A DNA stretch of 64,000 nt, taken from Armatimonadetes bacterium Uphvl-Ar1 (lineage in GTDB: Bacteria; Armatimonadota; Fimbriimonadia; Fimbriimonadales; Fimbriimonadaceae). Below are positions 15,049-23,108 of this stretch, in pieces (position 1 is the stretch's first letter; each line of letters begins with the position of its first letter). A program made the translations under genes and the position numbers. The stretch is from assembly GCA_002162075.1 (NCBI GenBank), contig CP021423.1:2418001-2482000 (forward strand), in the 5' to 3' direction. The notes below the pieces were generated by a model that searched no databases, was not told the DNA's origin, and was given only the letters and a program-made list of their open reading frames with translations.

Positions 15049-15082
15049 TTGCATATTTTGTATTTATCATGCATAATATGCG
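15049..15082 (+). promoter_or_regulatory. Arginine operon promoter with overlapping candidate ARG boxes
   Basis: TTGCAT (15049-15054), a 17-base spacer and CATAAT (15072-15077) form a good sigma70-type promoter. The ATG of argR follows at 15085, so the transcript would be nearly leaderless. The A+T-rich TGCATATT and AATATGC segments form an imperfect palindrome across both elements, including a perfect GCATA-A-TATGC at 15071-15081. Position and composition fit ArgR autoregulation, since ArgR family operators are about 18-base A+T-rich palindromes. Operator function is inferred. Confidence 0.6.
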
Positions 15083-15084
15083 TC

Positions 15085-15516
15085 ATGAACGACTCCCGGG
15101 AAGCCCGACTTGATGCCATCCGCAACATCATCGCCGAAACCTCCATCCCCAATCAAGAGGAATTGATCAAATCCCTGACCAACCTTGGCTACTCCGTTAC
15201 CCAATCCAGCGTGAGCCGCGATCTCACCGATCTCCGCATCAATAAATCCGGTGGATTTTATGTCCTCCCCGAAACCAACGCCATTCAACAACTCGGCATT
15301 CTCCAAGCAACCCCCGCCGGTCCAAATCTCCTCGTACTCAAGACCGCAATCGGCGCGGCACCCCTCATCGGTCTAAAAATCGACCAGCTCAAACTCAGCC
15401 AAATCATCGGAACGATATCCGGTGATGACACAATTTTCATCGCTACTGCCCAGCACACGGATCACCCTGTAATCCTCAAAGCCCTCGGGCTCACCACTTA
15501 CGGAGCGAGTAAATGA
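15085..15516 (+). CDS. argR: Arginine repressor ArgR
   Basis: 143 residues from the ATG at 15085. The N-terminal winged helix carries the family signature Q-S-S-V-S-R-D-L-T-D-L-R-I-N-K (about residues 44-58). The C-terminal domain has the arginine-binding/hexamerisation pattern G-D-D-T-I-F-I-A-T. With bound arginine, ArgR represses biosynthetic operons. Here it is the first gene of the operon it probably controls, overlapping argG by 4 bases (ATGA), and an AT-rich palindrome lies over the promoter. The longer upstream frame (from 15049) would cover the promoter, so I reject it. Confidence 0.9.
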   Translation: MNDSREARLDAIRNIIAETSIPNQEELIKSLTNLGYSVTQSSVSRDLTDLRINKSGGFYVLPETNAIQQLGILQATPAGPNLLVLKTAIGAAPLIGLKIDQLKLSQIIGTISGDDTIFIATAQHTDHPVILKALGLTTYGASK

Positions 15517-16721
15517 GCCAACCCCAGATCGCCCTCGCTTTCTCCGGTGGATTGGATACCTGTTGGTGCATCCCCGTGCTCAAGTCCCAAGGTTATGAAG
15601 TCACCACCGTAACCGTCGACGTCGGAGGATTTTCACCTGATGAACTAAAAGAAATCGAACTGCGTAGTCAACACCTTGGTGCCATCAAACACATCACCGT
15701 CCCTGCCGCCCAAATGTTCTTTGATGAAATTCTCCGCCACCTCATCGCCGGGAATGTCCTCCGTGGAAATCTTTATCCCCTCTGCGTCGGAGCCGAACGC
15801 TCCCTCCAAGCCCGCGAAACCGCCAAAATCGCCACCCAGATCGGTGCCGAAGCCGTCGCCCACGGCTGCACTGCCGCCGGAAACGATCAAATCCGATTCG
15901 AAATCGCCCTACGCACCCTCGCCCCAAATCTTAATATTCTTGCCCCCGTCCGTGACCAAGCCCCGTCTCGCCCCGACCAACTCGCCCTACTCAAAGCCAA
16001 CAACCTCGATTTCCCTGCCAATAAAGCGGCTTACAGCGTCAACTCCGGGCTATGGGGCGTGACCATCGGCGGAGAAGAAACAACCGGAACAGAATTCACA
16101 ATCCCCGAAGACCAGTGGCTACGCACCAAAAACGCCTTCGTCCAGACTCAACCTCCTGAATCTCTCACCATCACCTTCACCCACGGCATTCCCACTCACC
16201 TCAACTCAATCCCGCTTGACCCTGTTACCCTCATCACAAAGCTCGATCAAACCGTCGCAAAATTCGGCATCGGTCGAGGAATCCATCTCGGTGAAACCAT
16301 CCTCGGGATCAAGGGCCGTGTCGCATTCGAGGCTCCCGCCGCAACCGTCCTCGTCCAAGCCCACCGAGAACTGGAAAAGCTCACCCTCACCAAGCGCCAA
16401 ATCGCCCTCAAAGATCAAGTCGCCGCTCTCTATGGCGAATGGGTTCACGAAGGACTCTTCACCGAGCCAGCTTCACGAATGGCTGAATCACTCTTCACCG
16501 AATCCCAGAAGTCTGTCAGTGGCGATGTTCACATCGCCCTCCACCCTGGACATTCATTTGTATCTGGAGTTACTAGCCCTTATTCTCTCCACGCCGCTTC
16601 GCGCGCCGTCTATGGCGAAGCCGTGGGAGAGTGGACCCCCGAAGACGCCAAAGGATTCGCCCGGCTCTACGGCCTTGCGGGAATTCTTCACGCGCGTGCC
16701 AATCCCGGGGTGAACCCATGA
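15513..16721 (+). CDS. argG: Argininosuccinate synthase
   Basis: A 402-residue protein with the N-type ATP pyrophosphatase loop A-F-S-G-G-L-D-T near residue 8, A-H-G-C-T-A-A-G-N-D-Q-I-R-F-E near residue 110 and V-N-S-G-L-W-G in the middle. It joins citrulline and aspartate using ATP. The gene opens the enzymatic part of the operon and overlaps both argR and the next gene by 4 bases. In sequence style and position it resembles the Bacteroidetes-type argG that works with an acylornithine carbamoyltransferase. Confidence 0.93.
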   Translation: MSQPQIALAFSGGLDTCWCIPVLKSQGYEVTTVTVDVGGFSPDELKEIELRSQHLGAIKHITVPAAQMFFDEILRHLIAGNVLRGNLYPLCVGAERSLQARETAKIATQIGAEAVAHGCTAAGNDQIRFEIALRTLAPNLNILAPVRDQAPSRPDQLALLKANNLDFPANKAAYSVNSGLWGVTIGGEETTGTEFTIPEDQWLRTKNAFVQTQPPESLTITFTHGIPTHLNSIPLDPVTLITKLDQTVAKFGIGRGIHLGETILGIKGRVAFEAPAATVLVQAHRELEKLTLTKRQIALKDQVAALYGEWVHEGLFTEPASRMAESLFTESQKSVSGDVHIALHPGHSFVSGVTSPYSLHAASRAVYGEAVGEWTPEDAKGFARLYGLAGILHARANPGVNP

Positions 16722-17776
16722 GGGCTCTCATCCTCGACAAAATCGCTAGCGTCACCCAGAATGCCGCTCTCCGCCGAGATGTCCGAATCAGCGACACTTA
16801 CCCCTGTCAAGAAGGCGACATTGTCGCCGTCCGTGTTCTCACAAACAAGGCAACTTACAATGCCCTCGAGCTCACGACAGGAAGAATGTCCATCCTCAAG
16901 CAGGGCGATATCATCGCCGGAGCACTGGGGCATCGCAATGCCCTCCAGGGCTACGCCGGACACATCCCCAGAGCCCTCAAAACTGGCGACACGATTAACC
17001 TCCTCAATATGGGCGGCGTCCTCGGCATTTGCACCAGCCATTCACCACTCGTCGGACCGCCTCACCAATGTGAACTCCTCGGGAGCATTCTCAGCTTCCC
17101 CACCCTCAACTCCCGCCAAGGCGTTCCCGCCAACATCGCTACCAACGCCCCCCAGCTCCAATCCAAACTTCAAAACAATCTCCCCCCCATCATCGCCGTC
17201 ATCGGCACTTGCATGAATTCCGGCAAAACTGAAGCTTGCCTCACCATCATCCAACAACTCGTCCGCCGGGGCCTCAAAGTTTCTGCCGCCAAAACCACAG
17301 GCGTTTCCCTTCGTCGCGACATCCTTGCTATGGAAGATGCCGGAGCCACTGAGGTCGCTATTTTCACTGACCTTGGCATCGTCACAACCCAAGCCTCTAA
17401 CGGTGCAAACCTCACAAAAACCCTTATCAACAAACTCGCTCAGTCAACTCCAGATGTCATCATCCTCGAACTCGGCGATGGACTTCTCGGCGAATATGGA
17501 GTCGCCGCAATTCTGAACGATTCCCAAATCGCCGCATCCCTCACCAGTATCGTCCTCGCCGCTTCCGACCCTGTCGGGGCGTGGGGCGCAGTCGAACTTC
17601 TTAACCGCCGACACCAGATCACGCCCACTCTCATTACCGGACCCGCCACCGACAACACCGCCGGAAGCGAAGTCATTTTCCGTGAAACACAAATCCCCGG
17701 GCTGAACGCTCGCCACAACCCCATTGAGATTGTCGATCTTCTGGCCAAAACTCTCACCCCAAAAACTCATGTCTAA
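16718..17776 (+). CDS. Unknown P-loop NTPase embedded in the arginine operon
   Basis: 352 residues from the ATG at 16718, which overlaps the argG stop (ATGA). Residues 1-130 form a domain rich in G-D and G-G turns (G-D-I-V-A-V-R-V, G-H-R-N-A-L, L-L-N-M-G-G-V-L-G). Residues 160-172 have a Walker A-like G-T-C-M-N-S-G-K-T, and residues 247-261 a hydrophobic strand V-I-I-L-E-L-G-D-G-L-L-G that could serve as Walker B. The C-terminal part resembles dethiobiotin-synthetase/MobB-like or DUF1611-like NTPases. The gene overlaps argC by 8 bases, so it is translated with the pathway. It occupies the slot where other operons hold argD or an acetyltransferase. Its function is unknown; a kinase, ligase or amino-acid-sensing role are all possible. 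Confidence 0.75.
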   Translation: MRALILDKIASVTQNAALRRDVRISDTYPCQEGDIVAVRVLTNKATYNALELTTGRMSILKQGDIIAGALGHRNALQGYAGHIPRALKTGDTINLLNMGGVLGICTSHSPLVGPPHQCELLGSILSFPTLNSRQGVPANIATNAPQLQSKLQNNLPPIIAVIGTCMNSGKTEACLTIIQQLVRRGLKVSAAKTTGVSLRRDILAMEDAGATEVAIFTDLGIVTTQASNGANLTKTLINKLAQSTPDVIILELGDGLLGEYGVAAILNDSQIAASLTSIVLAASDPVGAWGAVELLNRRHQITPTLITGPATDNTAGSEVIFRETQIPGLNARHNPIEIVDLLAKTLTPKTHV

Positions 17777-18818
17777 ACACATCCCCACAATCGTCCTCGG
17801 CAGCACCGGCTACGTCGCCGCCGAAATCATCGGACTTCTTCTGAATCATCCCAGCTTCCGCATCGAAGCCGCAATCAGCACTTCCCAAGCCGGAAACCGG
17901 ATTGACGAAATCTTCCCTCACCTCATCGGCCCCGCCGGAGACTTGACCTTTAAATCGCTCGACCAAATCTCCAATCTCCTCGCCTCAAAACGCCAAACCG
18001 CAATTTTCTCTGCCCTTCCCCACGGTGAAACCGCCGCCTTCATCCAAAACCTGCTCCAGCAGTCCAAAACGAACGCCCAAATCGTGGACGTCTCCGCTGA
18101 TTTTCGTTACCGTACATCCGACGAATACGAAGCAGTCTATGGCAAACCTCATCCCGCACCAGAACTCCTCAGCTCATTTACATGTGCCCTCCCGGACATA
18201 ACCCCATCAACTCCCGACACCCACATAGCTCACCCTGGTTGTTTCACAACATGCGTCACTCTTCCCCTCGCGGGACTCTTTGCATGTGACCTCATCGAAC
18301 CCCATGTCAACGTCTCTGCCGTCACCGGATCAACCGGTGCCGGACGCCAACCCGGAGCAGGCACCCACCACCCGCACCGCCAAAGCTCGATGTGGGCTTA
18401 CCAACCCCTCAATCACCGCCACAAACCAGAAATGGAAAATCTCGTCGCCCCCTGGGAGCCCAACGCGCAAGTCACTTTCGTTCCCCACTCTGGACCGTTC
18501 GCACGAGGTATCCACGCGACAATTTTCGCAACCCTCAAATCAAACTCCGACTCCGAAGCCGTCATCGCCCAACTCCAAAAATTCTTTGAGCCATCTCCAT
18601 TCATCCGTGTCGGCTCCAAGATGCCCGAGCTCAAATCCATTGTCGGCTCAAATCGCTGCCAAATCGGGATCGCTGTCCAGGGCCGACAACTCGTCACGAC
18701 TGGCATCATCGACAATCTCGTGAAAGGTGCTGCCGGAGGTGCCGTCCAGTGGATGAACCGCCTCTTTAGCCTCGAAGAAACTGAGGGCTTGCTCAACGCC
18801 ACTCCCGGCTGGATATAA
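17769..18818 (+). CDS. argC: N-acetyl-gamma-glutamyl-phosphate reductase
   Basis: 349 residues from the ATG at 17769. It has an NAD(P)-binding start (V-L-G-S-T-G-Y-V-A-A-E), the catalytic Cys in H-P-G-C-F-T-T near residue 158, and the family segments G-S-T-G-A-G and F-V-P-H-S-G-P-F-A-R-G. It reduces acylglutamyl phosphate to the semialdehyde. Given the succinyl-type residue in the downstream carbamoyltransferase, the acyl group could be succinyl rather than acetyl. Confidence 0.92.
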   Translation: MSKHIPTIVLGSTGYVAAEIIGLLLNHPSFRIEAAISTSQAGNRIDEIFPHLIGPAGDLTFKSLDQISNLLASKRQTAIFSALPHGETAAFIQNLLQQSKTNAQIVDVSADFRYRTSDEYEAVYGKPHPAPELLSSFTCALPDITPSTPDTHIAHPGCFTTCVTLPLAGLFACDLIEPHVNVSAVTGSTGAGRQPGAGTHHPHRQSSMWAYQPLNHRHKPEMENLVAPWEPNAQVTFVPHSGPFARGIHATIFATLKSNSDSEAVIAQLQKFFEPSPFIRVGSKMPELKSIVGSNRCQIGIAVQGRQLVTTGIIDNLVKGAAGGAVQWMNRLFSLEETEGLLNATPGWI

Positions 18819-18822
18819 ATTC

Positions 18823-19809
18823 ATGAACGACTTCCTCTCCCTCCGAAATCTCCCCCGCGATCAAATTCAGAGCCTGGTCAATCTCGCCCGCGAACTCAAA
18901 GCCAACCCCATAAACGACACCCTCAAAGGAAAAGTGATCGGCCTCCTCTTCATGAATCCCAGCCTCCGCACCCTTGCCAGCTTCCAGTCGGGAATCGGGC
19001 AAATGGGCGGAACCAGCGTCGTGATTCAACCAGGCACCGGAACCTGGACTCTCGAAACCCGTGACGGCGTCGTGATGGATGGCTCCGAAGTCGAACATAT
19101 CAGCGAAGCTATCCCCGTTCTTGCCTCTTATTGCGACATTCTTGGCATCCGTTCGTTCGCCAATCAAATCAATCTCAAAGAAGATCTCGCCGACGGCCTC
19201 ATGCACAAGTTTGCCGACCTCTCCCCCAAACCTCTCATCAACATGGAATCCGCCAGCGATCACCCGTGCCAAGCCCTCGCCGATTGGCAAACCCTCGATG
19301 AACTCAACATCCCGTCAGACGGCAACTTCGTCCTCAGCTGGGCATGGCATCCTAAACCTCTCTCCTACGCTGTACCCCGCGCTGCCCTTTCCATGGCCTC
19401 CCTCCGAGGAATGAATATCACGATCCACTCCCCCAAATCTCACCCTATCCCCGATGAACTCATCGCCGAAGCCAAAACCCTCGGCGCAAAGTCCATCCGC
19501 CACACCCATACCCCCGCCGAATCACTCAAAAACGCCGATGTTCTCTACTGCAAATCGTGGGTTGCCCCCCAAAACTACGGCAATCCGGAAGCTGAGATGC
19601 TCCTCCGGAAAGACCTCCGTAACTGGTGCGTCGCCGAATCCTGGTTCCAAACCGCAGAGCCCGACGCCAAATTCATGCACTGCCTGCCCGTACGTCGCAA
19701 CGTCAAAGTCGCCGACGAAATTCTCGATGGTCCTCGCTCTGTCGTCATCCATCAAGCCGAAAATCGACTTCACGCTCAAAAGGCAATCCTCACAAACCTG
19801 ATCAACTGA
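18823..19809 (+). CDS. argF': N-acylornithine carbamoyltransferase (ArgF', acetyl/succinyl-ornithine type)
   Basis: A 328-residue protein related to the acylornithine rather than the ordinary ornithine transcarbamylases. Carbamoyl-phosphate binding is shown by F-M-N-P-S-L-R-T (43-50), H-P-C-Q (147-150) and H-C-L-P (286-289). The stretch G-T-W-T-L-E-T-R-D-G-V-V-M-D-G (71-87) and S-W-A-W-H-P-K-P-L (172-180) are family hallmarks. Residue 90 (in D-G-S-E-V-E-H) aligns with the specificity position that is Glu92 in Xanthomonas acetylornithine and Pro90 in Bacteroides succinylornithine enzymes. Here it is Val, which points to succinylornithine. It replaces argF/argI in the route, so citrulline is made as an acyl derivative and deacylated by ArgE'. 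Confidence 0.9.
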   Translation: MNDFLSLRNLPRDQIQSLVNLARELKANPINDTLKGKVIGLLFMNPSLRTLASFQSGIGQMGGTSVVIQPGTGTWTLETRDGVVMDGSEVEHISEAIPVLASYCDILGIRSFANQINLKEDLADGLMHKFADLSPKPLINMESASDHPCQALADWQTLDELNIPSDGNFVLSWAWHPKPLSYAVPRAALSMASLRGMNITIHSPKSHPIPDELIAEAKTLGAKSIRHTHTPAESLKNADVLYCKSWVAPQNYGNPEAEMLLRKDLRNWCVAESWFQTAEPDAKFMHCLPVRRNVKVADEILDGPRSVVIHQAENRLHAQKAILTNLIN

Positions 19810-19810
19810 C

Positions 19811-20683
19811 ATGCAATCCACCACCGTCCAAGCCCTCCGCCACGCCTTGCCCTATCTCGAACATTACCGTGGCAAACTCTTTGTCTTGAAATGTGGCGGC
19901 GAGGCCCTTGGGCACCCGTCCCACCTCGCCAGCCTCATCGAGCAAATCGCCGTCCTCCACCAACTTGGAATCCAAATTGCCCTCGTTCACGGTGGCGCCC
20001 CGCAAGCCACTCAACTCGCCAAGACCTTAGGACAAGAGCCAACATTCATTGACGGTCGCCGGGTCACGACCCCAGAAGCCCTCGAATCCACAATCATGGC
20101 GATCAACGGGCTCGCTCAAGCCACACTGCTCGCCGCCGCCCGCCGGCAAAATCTACCCGCAATTGGCCTCTCCGGGATCGATCACGGAATCATTCAATCC
20201 ACTAAACGCCCACCCGTCAAAACCAGCCAAGGCACTAAGGATTTCGGTCAAGTTGGAGACATTCAAACCGTCAACTGTAAACCGCTCAAAAACCTGATTG
20301 CCAATCAAACGATCCCTTTCATGAGCCCCATCTCCGCCGATTCAGAAGGCCAAATCCTCAACATCAATGCCGATGACGTCGCCGCCCAAATCGCCCTGGC
20401 TCTTGGAGCTACCAAGCTCATTCTGGTCACAACTCCCCGGGGCATCCTGAGCGATCCCGGAGATCAAAACTCTCTGATCTCCCAACTCACCCTTTCCGAG
20501 CTCGATCAACTGCATCGGAGCGGAATAATCTCGACCGGTATGCTCCCCAAATCCAAAGCCATTCGCACCGCTCTGGAAAACGGTGTCGAGCGCGTTCACG
20601 TCATCAGCTACCAGTTCCCTGACAGCATCCTCACCGAAGTTTTCACCAATGAGGGCTGCGGTACCCTGATCCTCAATGACTAG
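19811..20683 (+). CDS. argB: Acetylglutamate kinase family (N-acylglutamate kinase)
   Basis: A 290-residue amino-acid-kinase fold protein: the N-terminal V-L-K-C-G-G-E-A-L, the L-V-H-G-G loop near residue 59, the T-P-E-A-L-E segment and the C-terminal S-T-G-M-L-P-K nucleotide site. It phosphorylates N-acetyl- or N-succinyl-glutamate. It starts one base after the argF' stop. A 201-base stretch with no gene separates it from argE', the only large gap in the operon. Confidence 0.9.
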   Translation: MQSTTVQALRHALPYLEHYRGKLFVLKCGGEALGHPSHLASLIEQIAVLHQLGIQIALVHGGAPQATQLAKTLGQEPTFIDGRRVTTPEALESTIMAINGLAQATLLAAARRQNLPAIGLSGIDHGIIQSTKRPPVKTSQGTKDFGQVGDIQTVNCKPLKNLIANQTIPFMSPISADSEGQILNINADDVAAQIALALGATKLILVTTPRGILSDPGDQNSLISQLTLSELDQLHRSGIISTGMLPKSKAIRTALENGVERVHVISYQFPDSILTEVFTNEGCGTLILND

Positions 20684-20884
20684 TTTAATTACTTTGAACC
20701 GAATGTTCCCCGTCAGGTCGATGAGACACTCTTTGACGTTCTCCCGATCGCTCATCTCAGCTATGGAAGCGCTTCATTTTCGGGTAGGCGGGAACCCAGT
20801 CCCGAGAGAGAGTGCCAAAGGCACCTCCTTAATCCTAACCAAGTCTCAAGTAAGCGATCAACTGTGTCAGGGGGATACCACCCT
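20684..20884 (+). repeat. Non-coding insertion-like stretch inside the arginine operon
   Basis: This 201-base gap breaks an otherwise overlapping operon. It contains small inverted repeats: GAAGCGCTTC (20766-20775) and GTGCC-AAA-GGCAC (20812-20824), plus a GGGA...TCCC pair around 20790-20802. A short minus-strand frame starting at 20755 runs into argB and looks like chance. The clustered palindromes suggest a REP-like or mobile repeat relic. A copy elsewhere would be needed to prove it, and none is in the window. Confidence 0.35.
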
Positions 20885-21933
20885 GTGACTAACCTCCTCG
20901 CCCTCCACCGCGATCTCATCGCGATCCCTTCCGTTTCCCACAGCGAAACAGAAATCGCTGACTTCGTCTTCTCCTACCTCACACAAAACGGCATAACCCC
21001 AACTCGAATCGGCAACAACATCATCGCCCAGACCAGCGACGAAACACGACTTCTCCTCAATTCCCACCTCGACACCGTGCCCCCAACGATGCGTGGACGC
21101 GACCTCCCTGGGAACCCACTCAAGAGAACGACATCATCTTCGGCCTCGGATCCAACGACGCAAAAGGATGTGTTGCCGCCATGATCACCGCCTTCATCGC
21201 CAACAAATCAACCCCCGGACTGGCCCTCCTCCTCAGTCCCGAAGAAGAAACCGGTGGTCAAGGCACCGAATTTGCTTGGCCGATCCTCCGCGATGAACAG
21301 AACTGGCACCCGGAAGCCATCATCGTCGGCGAACCTTCCGAACTCCAAATCGGCACCGTCCAACGCGGACTTCTCCTCCTGGACCTCGTCGCAAAGGGCC
21401 AAGCCAGCCACGCCGCTAACGCCGACCCGAGTGGCAAAACGAATCCCATTTTCACTCTTGCCCGTGACCTCGTCAAGCTCCAAAACATCACCCTCACCCC
21501 TCACGCCGAACTTGGTCAACCCACCATCCAACCGACCACCTTGACGGGAGCCGAAGCCCGAAATCAGATCCCTGGCGAAGCCCGAGCCAGCTTCGATATC
21601 CGAACCGTTCCTATCGAAACCCACGCTGAAATCATCGCTCTCCTTGAAGAAACTCTCACCTCCGAAATTGAAGTTCGATCCCAACGGCTCACGCCTTTCG
21701 CTTGCAACCCCGAAGCCCGAATCATCCGGACAATACAATCCCTCCACCCACAGTCCAAAACCTTCGCCAGCCGCACGATGTCGGATCAAGTCCACTTCAC
21801 TGGGTTCAATGCCGTCAAATTCGGTCCTGGTGTCTCTGCCCGATCCCATACTGCCGACGAATTTATCCTCGCTTCCGAACTCATCGCCGGGGCACAAGCC
21901 TACGACCAAATCATCAAGGAATTCCTATCATGA
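20885..21933 (+). CDS. argE': N-acyl-citrulline/ornithine deacylase (ArgE'/LysK-type M20 peptidase), frameshifted
   Basis: GTG at 20885 preceded by an AGGGGG sequence; a GTG at 20864 is an alternative. The M20 fold is clear: metal-site N-S-H-L-D-T-V-P-P, then D-A-K-G in the other frame, S-P-E-E-E-T-G-G-Q-G and the final S-A-R-S-H-T-A-D-E. As given, the frame breaks at the C5 run 21080-21084. One extra C yields H-L-D-T-V-P-P-N-D-A-W and one continuous protein of about 349 residues. It should remove the acyl group from N-acylcitrulline after ArgF', matching the Bacteroidetes pathway. It overlaps argH by 4 bases (ATGA). The frameshift is probably a sequence error. Confidence 0.85.
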
Positions 21934-23108
21934 ACAAAACGACTCGCCTCTGGGACAAAGGCCAACCCATCAACGACCAAATCCTCGCCTTTACCGTTGG
22001 CAACGACCCCCTCCTCGACCAACGCCTTATCCCCTACGACATTACTGCCAGCGTCGCCCACGCCCAAATGCTTGGCGAACAAAACCACCTCACCCCAGAA
22101 GAAGTCGAAAAACTCACCCGAGCCCTCGAAGAACTCCGAAGCGAAGACATCCAAATCTCTATACAAGAAGAGGACTGCCACACCGCCATCGAAAACCACC
22201 TCACCCAAAAGCTCGGCGGCCTCGGCGGCAAGATTCACCTCGGACGATCCCGCAACGACCAAGTTCTCACTGCCCTCCGACTCTATTACCGTCAAGTTAT
22301 TGCCGATATTCATTCCTACACAAAAGAGGCCGTGGCAAGTCTGATAGAGCTCGCCCACAACCAAGGCGAGATCAAAATCCCTGGATACACCCACCTCCAA
22401 CAAGCCATGCCCTCATCTGTATCTCTATGGGCTGATGGATACGTTGCCGAGCTCAATCATTCTCTCAACTCATTTGCCGCCGCCGATCACCTCGTCATAC
22501 TCAACCCCCTCGGGTCTGCCGCAGGCTACGGCACCCCCGGGCTCACCCTTGACCGTGAATCCACTACCAAAAAACTCGGATTCAACCAAACCCACGAACC
22601 CGTCACCGCCCCACAACTCAGTCGAGGAAAAGCTGAATCCGCCCTCGCGTTCAGCCTGTGCCTCATCATGCAAGATCTCGGCCGACTCGCCGCCGATCTC
22701 TGTCTCTATAACTCCCAAGAATTTGCCCTCGTCACCCTTGCCGATGACATCACGACCGGGTCAAGCATCATGCCCCAAAAGCGCAATCCCGATGTCTTCG
22801 AACTCATCCGGGGCCACTCCGCCCAGGCTCCCGCCGAACTCCAAGCCATCCAGAACATAACCCTCAAGATGTCCTCTGGCTACCACCGCGACCTTCAACT
22901 GATCAAAGAACCTCTCTTCCGACTCATTGACCGCACCCAACAAACCCTCCAAATCACCGCCTACGCTCTGACACGAATCACCTTCGACACCGACCGAGCG
23001 GCTCAAATAACTGACCCCGGAATCCACGCCGCCGAAGCCGCATTTGCTCTCGTTCAAACAGAGAAAATCAGCTTCCGTGAAGCCTACCGCCGCATCGCAG
23101 CAAACTAA
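21930..23108 (+). CDS. argH: Argininosuccinate lyase (short form)
   Basis: 392 residues from the ATG at 21930. It has the fumarase/aspartase superfamily signature S-S-I-M-P-Q-K-R-N-P-D near residue 277 and the catalytic G-Y-T-H-L-Q-Q-A-M-P region. Most ArgH are about 460 residues; this one lacks the C-terminal tail and ends at F-R-E-A-Y-R-R-I, as in Bacteroidetes-type operons. It splits argininosuccinate to arginine and fumarate, the last step. A strong hairpin terminator follows. Confidence 0.92.
   Translation: MNKTTRLWDKGQPINDQILAFTVGNDPLLDQRLIPYDITASVAHAQMLGEQNHLTPEEVEKLTRALEELRSEDIQISIQEEDCHTAIENHLTQKLGGLGGKIHLGRSRNDQVLTALRLYYRQVIADIHSYTKEAVASLIELAHNQGEIKIPGYTHLQQAMPSSVSLWADGYVAELNHSLNSFAAADHLVILNPLGSAAGYGTPGLTLDRESTTKKLGFNQTHEPVTAPQLSRGKAESALAFSLCLIMQDLGRLAADLCLYNSQEFALVTLADDITTGSSIMPQKRNPDVFELIRGHSAQAPAELQAIQNITLKMSSGYHRDLQLIKEPLFRLIDRTQQTLQITAYALTRITFDTDRAAQITDPGIHAAEAAFALVQTEKISFREAYRRIAAN

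Follow-up and report, generated by a model that had tools for sequence, protein, structure and literature searches.

Although arginine synthesis is textbook biochemistry, its first step, the N-acylation of glutamate, lacks a known gene in some genomes. In the arginine operon of Armatimonadetes bacterium Uphvl-Ar1, a gene for a P-loop protein, here called X, is located between argG and argC. This raises the question whether X carries out a step of the pathway and, if so, which one. The window is the whole stretch of 64,000 nucleotides that was analysed, and feature positions refer to it.

Gene X within the arginine operon

The following features were assigned (with the basis of the assignment in parentheses):

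15085..15516, + strand: argR, arginine repressor (TIGR01529, 2e-26, below the cut-off of this model)
15513..16721, + strand: argG, argininosuccinate synthase (TIGR00032, 295 bits against a cut-off of 268)
16718..17776, + strand: X, candidate P-loop N-acylglutamate (probably N-succinylglutamate) synthase (ORF; operon linkage; ArgJ/ArgA exclusion)
16718..17095, + strand: X N-terminal beta-rich domain, residues 1-126 (AlphaFold2 model; comparison with solved folds blank)
17180..17755, + strand: X C-terminal P-loop domain, residues 155-346, SIMIBI-type as in BioD, CTP synthetase, and DUF1611/DgcN (model and fold matches)
17204..17230, + strand: Walker A motif GTCMNSGKT, residues 163-171 (sequence)
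17769..18818, + strand: argC, N-acyl-gamma-glutamyl-phosphate reductase (TIGR01850, over cut-off)
18823..19809, + strand: argF', N-acyl-ornithine carbamoyltransferase, succinyl-type by Val90 (PRK04523, over cut-off)
19090..19092, + strand: codon for ArgF' residue 90 (Val), the acetyl/succinyl specificity position (alignment)
19811..20683, + strand: argB, N-acylglutamate kinase (TIGR00761, over cut-off)
20864..21184, + strand: argE, 5' part, frame broken in the assembly (ORF and family scan)
21181..21933, + strand: argE, 3' part, M20-family deacylase of the succinyl-DAP desuccinylase/acetylornithine deacetylase group (PF01546 and PF07687, over cut-off)
21930..23108, + strand: argH, argininosuccinate lyase (TIGR00838, over cut-off)

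The operon order is argR, argG, X, argC, argF', argB, argE, argH. The reading frame of X is uninterrupted and codes for 352 residues. Its start codon (ATG, 16718) precedes the end of argG (16721) and its stop codon (TAA, 17776) lies beyond the start codon of argC (ATG, 17769). The overlaps of 4 and 8 bases that had been claimed in an earlier note on this DNA are thus confirmed by the ORF coordinates. The start codon of argR is ambiguous, with an in-frame TTG further upstream at 15049.

The argE gene (20864-21933) is represented by two overlapping ORFs. Indels in the assembly are a possible source of this split, because an aminotransferase gene of the same genome (G000:C1:1527582-1528465) is likewise broken and argE is intact, with a single open frame of about 350 residues, in a relative (L022) with 91% identity.

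The earlier note had also stated that argD and an acetyltransferase gene are absent from this operon. This holds for the window, where argF' directly follows argC. A search of the genome (G000, one contig of 2.99 Mb, on which X is present as a single copy) revealed no ortholog of the neighbours' argD; the best match has 31% identity (895329-896447), and one further match is broken.

Domains, fold, and family relationships of X

The AlphaFold2 model of X (mean pLDDT 92.8, pTM 0.89) shows strands up to about residue 126 and an alpha/beta P-loop domain from about residue 155. Both the separate N-terminal domain of about 130 residues and the Walker A-like motif described in the earlier note were recovered in this way, the latter at residues 163-171. 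Conserved residues are found in both domains: among the 54 aligned X members, D7, Y47, E51, R56, D64, and R73 are invariant in the N-terminal domain, as are G163, G169, K170, K192, D201, D207, E251, and D254 in the C-terminal domain.

A Foldseek-type comparison of the two domains, which had been proposed as a check, identified the C-terminal domain as a P-loop domain of the SIMIBI type and left the N-terminal domain without a solved counterpart. When the N-terminal domain was predicted alone (pLDDT 92.8) and compared to the PDB, no solved-fold match was obtained (Foldseek best E 0.48, VIA-align best Z 3.2), although Foldseek could miss a fold. For the C-terminal domain, the matches include 2g0t (Z 17.3), 2obn (Z 16.5), and 7xrj (Z 15.4, rmsd 3.1, 179 aligned residues). 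We take 2g0t to be a DUF1611 protein (its PDB title says only putative nucleotide binding protein). X thus has the fold of the DUF1611/DgcN P-loop domain (PF07755; 7xrj, 2obn, 2g0t), but DgcN is not singled out, as its Z-score is tied with those of CTP synthetase, BioD, HypB, and other SIMIBI folds. FtsY/Ffh and MobB are also proteins of this fold.

At the sequence level, the best family match of X is MobB (PF03205, 1.2e-5 over residues 159-251). The scores stay below the curated cut-offs for MobB (PF03205, 25.7 against 26.6 bits; TIGR00176, 23.1 against 76.2 bits) and for DUF1611/DgcN (PF07755, 16 bits against a gathering cut-off of 25), and X is thus rejected as a member of either family. 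The NCBIfam scan gave no model over its cut-off. Pfam and NCBIfam scans up to E 10 did not return any GNAT or kinase model, nor the ArgJ model PF01960. The note had regarded a match to a known unrelated family, such as a mobilisation ATPase, as an argument against its own proposal; X stays under every curated cut-off. A mobilisation or plasmid ATPase is also rejected because X is a single-copy gene on the only contig of its genome and is locked to its operon.

The relationship to DUF1611 deserves a closer look. With E-values up to 1, PF07755 matches 40 of the 54 X members (best 4.7e-5), and a profile comparison between X and DUF1611, the latter represented by 16 proteins of relatives, resulted in 18% probability over 34 P-loop columns. 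On the present comparison, sequence kinship between X and DUF1611 is thus seen for the P-loop only. The N-terminal domains differ by sequence, and DUF1611 proteins read GQTG or GQIG where X has the invariant K192 (correspondence by eye). DUF1611 genes over the cut-off occur in 86 of 121 related genomes; G000 is without a match.

BioD and CTP synthetase have the P-loop fold class in common with X, and the BioD lysine after strand 2 aligns with K192 of X in a profile alignment. Sequence likeness does not extend beyond the P-loop region (E 0.45), and both the N-terminal domain and the gene context differ. Among PDB sequences, X has no single-sequence match, and a profile search returned only matches in the range of the P-loop, with E 0.4 or worse.

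Open-licence literature was searched for DUF1611 with P-loop and arginine, and for N-acetylglutamate synthase with DUF1611, and no paper was found for either. Papers found for DUF1611 alone were unrelated by title. As judged by titles, none of the listed open-licence papers on the succinylated pathway or on N-acetylglutamate synthase neighbourhoods names a P-loop N-acylglutamate synthase.

Linkage to arg operons and absence of ArgJ and ArgA

X was searched in a close set of 61 genomes (G000 and relatives) and was found in 21 of them, adjoining arg genes in 20. The remaining one (G052, locus L021) shows 24% identity, is outside an arg operon, and was left out of the counts. A wide scan of the genomes of 84,980 species resulted in at least 564 coding loci, of which the best 80, from many phyla, were analysed. 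Together with 19 loci from relatives, these form a linkage set of 99 loci, which includes at least seven duplicates (six by sequence, plus L077).

In 96 of these 99 loci, argC follows X immediately on the same strand, with a median gap of 38 bases. In the three others (L103, L104, and L106, the last at a contig end), no arg gene was detected downstream of X. The gene before X is argG in 82 loci, argR in nine, and argB in two; six have none or are at a contig edge. The order argG-X-argC, the conservation of which had been proposed as a check, is thus found well beyond the window. Relatives far from arg genes would have counted against a role in the pathway; the arg-type relatives are located in arg operons. 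Because X is conserved in other phyla and argC is directly downstream in nearly all loci, the presence of the X reading frame in the arg operon is far more than chance.

Carriers of X (according to the depositors' labels, as also applies to taxon names of MAGs) belong to Armatimonadota, Planctomycetota, Gemmatimonadota, Myxococcota, Acidobacteriota, Elusimicrobia, and some Gammaproteobacteria. In the Corallococcus family (G110), 10 of 39 genomes have X. A variant operon, argR-X-argC-argD-argB, occurs at L078-L082, L084, and L091, with argG, argF', and argH not detected beside it.

Among the best 80 of at least 564 loci, X is accompanied by argC in 77, by argG, argB, and argR in 69 each, by argD in 65, by argF' in 61, by argH in 56, and by argE in 36, all counts being lowered by contig ends. 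Only step 1 is without a gene in the X operons. These counts bear on the idea that X replaces the ArgD or the ArgE step rather than step 1. It would account for the missing argD in the window and for the many gammaproteobacterial operons in which argE was not detected. However, both genes do occur beside X, argD so frequently that X as a substitute for ArgD is rejected, and the P-loop NTPase fold is neither that of a PLP enzyme nor that of a metallohydrolase. We consider this replacement highly improbable, and the absence of argD, which is correctly described for the window, proved to be a side issue.

The distribution of X was compared to that of ArgJ, which supplies the acetylated form of the same intermediate. 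ArgJ is encoded in 23 of the 61 close genomes, and all 20 genomes with an arg-operon X lack it (Fisher p 1e-11 for the 44 genomes that have argC, ArgJ, or both, uncorrected for kinship). Of the 43 argC-positive genomes, 20 have X, 22 have ArgJ, and one (G030) has neither; in the latter, argC adjoins a LysX gene over the cut-off and thus belongs to a LysW-type lysine pathway cluster. Within the same bacterial family, ArgJ takes a position next to argC in all eight genomes that have it (gap 42-72 bases). ArgJ was also absent from 50 X-positive genomes from many phyla (selected from the best 80 of at least 564 loci; at least four of them repeat relatives), with 10 of 14 controls positive. The two genes never occur in the same genome in the sets searched.

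A similar picture emerges for ArgA (TIGR01890), the enzyme of the step for which X is proposed. According to excerpts of a review, ArgA consists of an amino-acid-kinase and a GNAT domain (PMC4490483), and X matches neither. No ArgA over the cut-off was detected in 54 X-positive genomes or in the 61 close genomes. Strong matches to the ArgA model in X-positive genomes fall in the kinase part and are thus argB-like; weak GNAT-like matches exist in some of these genomes (best GNAT-range E 3.5e-8). In Gammaproteobacteria (the class of G081, a Chromatiales record; n=185), ArgA is found in 123 genomes, but all five that carry an arg-type X, defined as E below 1e-120, lack it (p 0.004). It is present in all seven gammaproteobacterial genomes that have only a distant X paralog; these counts leave out eight genomes in which the match covers the P-loop only (E 4.6e-5 to 1e-3). 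The exclusion counts are non-independent, as operon cassettes may be swapped as a whole, so that there are fewer events than genomes. As shown by the ArgJ and ArgA counts, X is present where step 1 lacks a known gene and is absent where a known gene is present.

This pattern has to be weighed against an alternative, namely that X, as an NTPase, has an accessory or regulatory role (as an assembly factor, a sensor, or a metabolon protein) and that N-acylglutamate is made by an unlinked single-domain GNAT. GTPases and accessory factors, among them HypB, FtsY/Ffh, and MobB, do share the P-loop fold of X. Single-domain synthases exist (ArgO, S-NAGS, and C-NAGS, as described in passages of PMC4490483 and PMC3827942) and are indistinguishable from other GNATs by search. 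Such a GNAT is encoded beside the operon in two of 121 sequences (120 loci and the window). These are the related gammaproteobacterial loci L061 (15715-16242, after argH) and L066 (15760-16272), where it is directly 3' of the arg operon. The L061 GNAT has its only homologue among these sequences in L066 and, not being conserved, was rejected as the step-1 gene. X is absent from 23 of 23 ArgJ genomes among the 61 close ones and arg-type X from 123 of 123 ArgA-positive Gammaproteobacteria, and such avoidance is unexpected for an accessory factor of later steps. As to regulation, which the earlier note had offered as its second option, the operon already contains argR, and this option is unsupported. 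We thus consider an accessory or regulatory role unlikely.

Because X is operon-locked in many phyla, in just those genomes that lack the known first enzyme, it is probably (with a probability of about 0.75) the first enzyme of arginine synthesis here and in many phyla, one that N-acylates L-glutamate. The best reading is that X would be a non-GNAT, non-ArgJ, non-orthologous replacement for ArgA, which has the GNAT fold, and for ArgJ. The suggestion in the earlier note that X fills a missing step is thus strengthened by comparative genomics and is narrowed to step 1; the reaction itself is inferred.

Proposed reaction and acyl group

As a glutamate-capping enzyme, X would acylate the amino group of L-glutamate, and the product would feed ArgB, ArgC, ArgD, ArgF', and ArgE. 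Two chemical routes can be envisaged. X may transfer the acyl group from CoA, with the P-loop holding the phosphates of acyl-CoA (a guess that extends to DgcN); this option fits the DgcN precedent. DgcN acetylates D-glutamate. It opens the D-Glu conversion pathway, as stated in excerpts of the DgcN literature. Alternatively, X may activate the acid with ATP, which the P-loop would bind as in BioD. The latter option fits the BioD-like residue set, since X keeps the P-loop Lys and the invariant residues K192, D201, D207, E251, and D254, which are of the kinds seen in ATP-using members of the fold. We nevertheless regard an ATP-using acylating enzyme as rather unlikely. The conserved N-terminal domain may contribute to the binding of glutamate or of the acyl group.

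The nature of the acyl group can be approached via ArgF'. The window protein aligns with N-acetylornithine carbamoyltransferases and with the Bacteroides-type transcarbamylase. In the Xanthomonas enzyme, the specificity site has Glu, a residue of the acetyl type. According to passages of PMC7311316, a succinyl substrate is preferred when position 90 (BT3717 numbering) is S, P, A, or V. The window ArgF' has Val at this position, which is a variable site in ArgF' alignments. In 78 loci (of 100 examined, duplicates included), the residue is A in 42, V in 22, P in four, S in two, Q in six, and T in two. Because a succinyl-type residue is thus found in 70 of 78 cases, most X-bearing arginine pathways look succinylated, and X would accordingly be expected to make N-succinylglutamate. 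Provided that X is an N-acylglutamate synthase, succinyl is the somewhat favoured acyl group.

X may instead make N-acetylglutamate, with acetyl-CoA as donor, at least in some lineages, a variant that is compatible with X being the first enzyme. Q or T, which are outside the published succinyl set, occupy the site in eight of 78 loci, NCBIfam names the model of the window ArgF' (PRK04523) N-acetylornithine carbamoyltransferase, and the PDB title of 7xrj is 'N-acetyltransferase DgcN-25328'. On the other hand, Glu is found at the specificity site in none of the 78 loci. We consider this variant a tentative but tangible possibility.

Cabys_1732 and BT3761 (from Caldithrix and Bacteroidetes) resemble X in that they are assigned to step 1 and belong to an arginine operon that also contains argG and argC. 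We take synthases of this type to be GNAT-type proteins. X, a P-loop protein that is spread over other phyla, differs from them by description. In excerpts of PMC7311316, BT3761 is considered probably the N-succinylglutamate synthase of the succinylated pathway in Bacteroidetes, and GapMind fills the glutamate-succinylating step only for this group. Passages of PMC5317091 place its relative Cabys_1732 in a locus argAGCBEH and report, as of 2017, that this type of synthase is restricted to Bacteroidetes and C. abyssi. The gene succinylating glutamate was unidentified in 2015 according to an excerpt of a review from that year (PMC4490483). If our assignment is true, X fills step 1 for all the groups listed above, from Armatimonadota to some Gammaproteobacteria, removes false calls of arginine auxotrophy in many genomes, and brings an unrelated fold into the set of N-acylglutamate-forming enzymes.

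Paralogs of X (E 1e-38 to 1e-49) are also encoded outside arg operons, some adjoining ABC exporters and one an M20 peptidase; none of them enters the exclusion counts. In the distant paralogs L178, L179, L181, and L021/L041, all outside arg operons, a transporter-like gene follows. By family scan, this gene codes for an MsbA/CydD-like ABC exporter in L179, and that of L041 matches in the membrane part only. In L177 (6399-8603), from a genome that also has an arg-type X, the paralog adjoins an M20-family hydrolase, and the two are possibly another acylation/deacylation pair.
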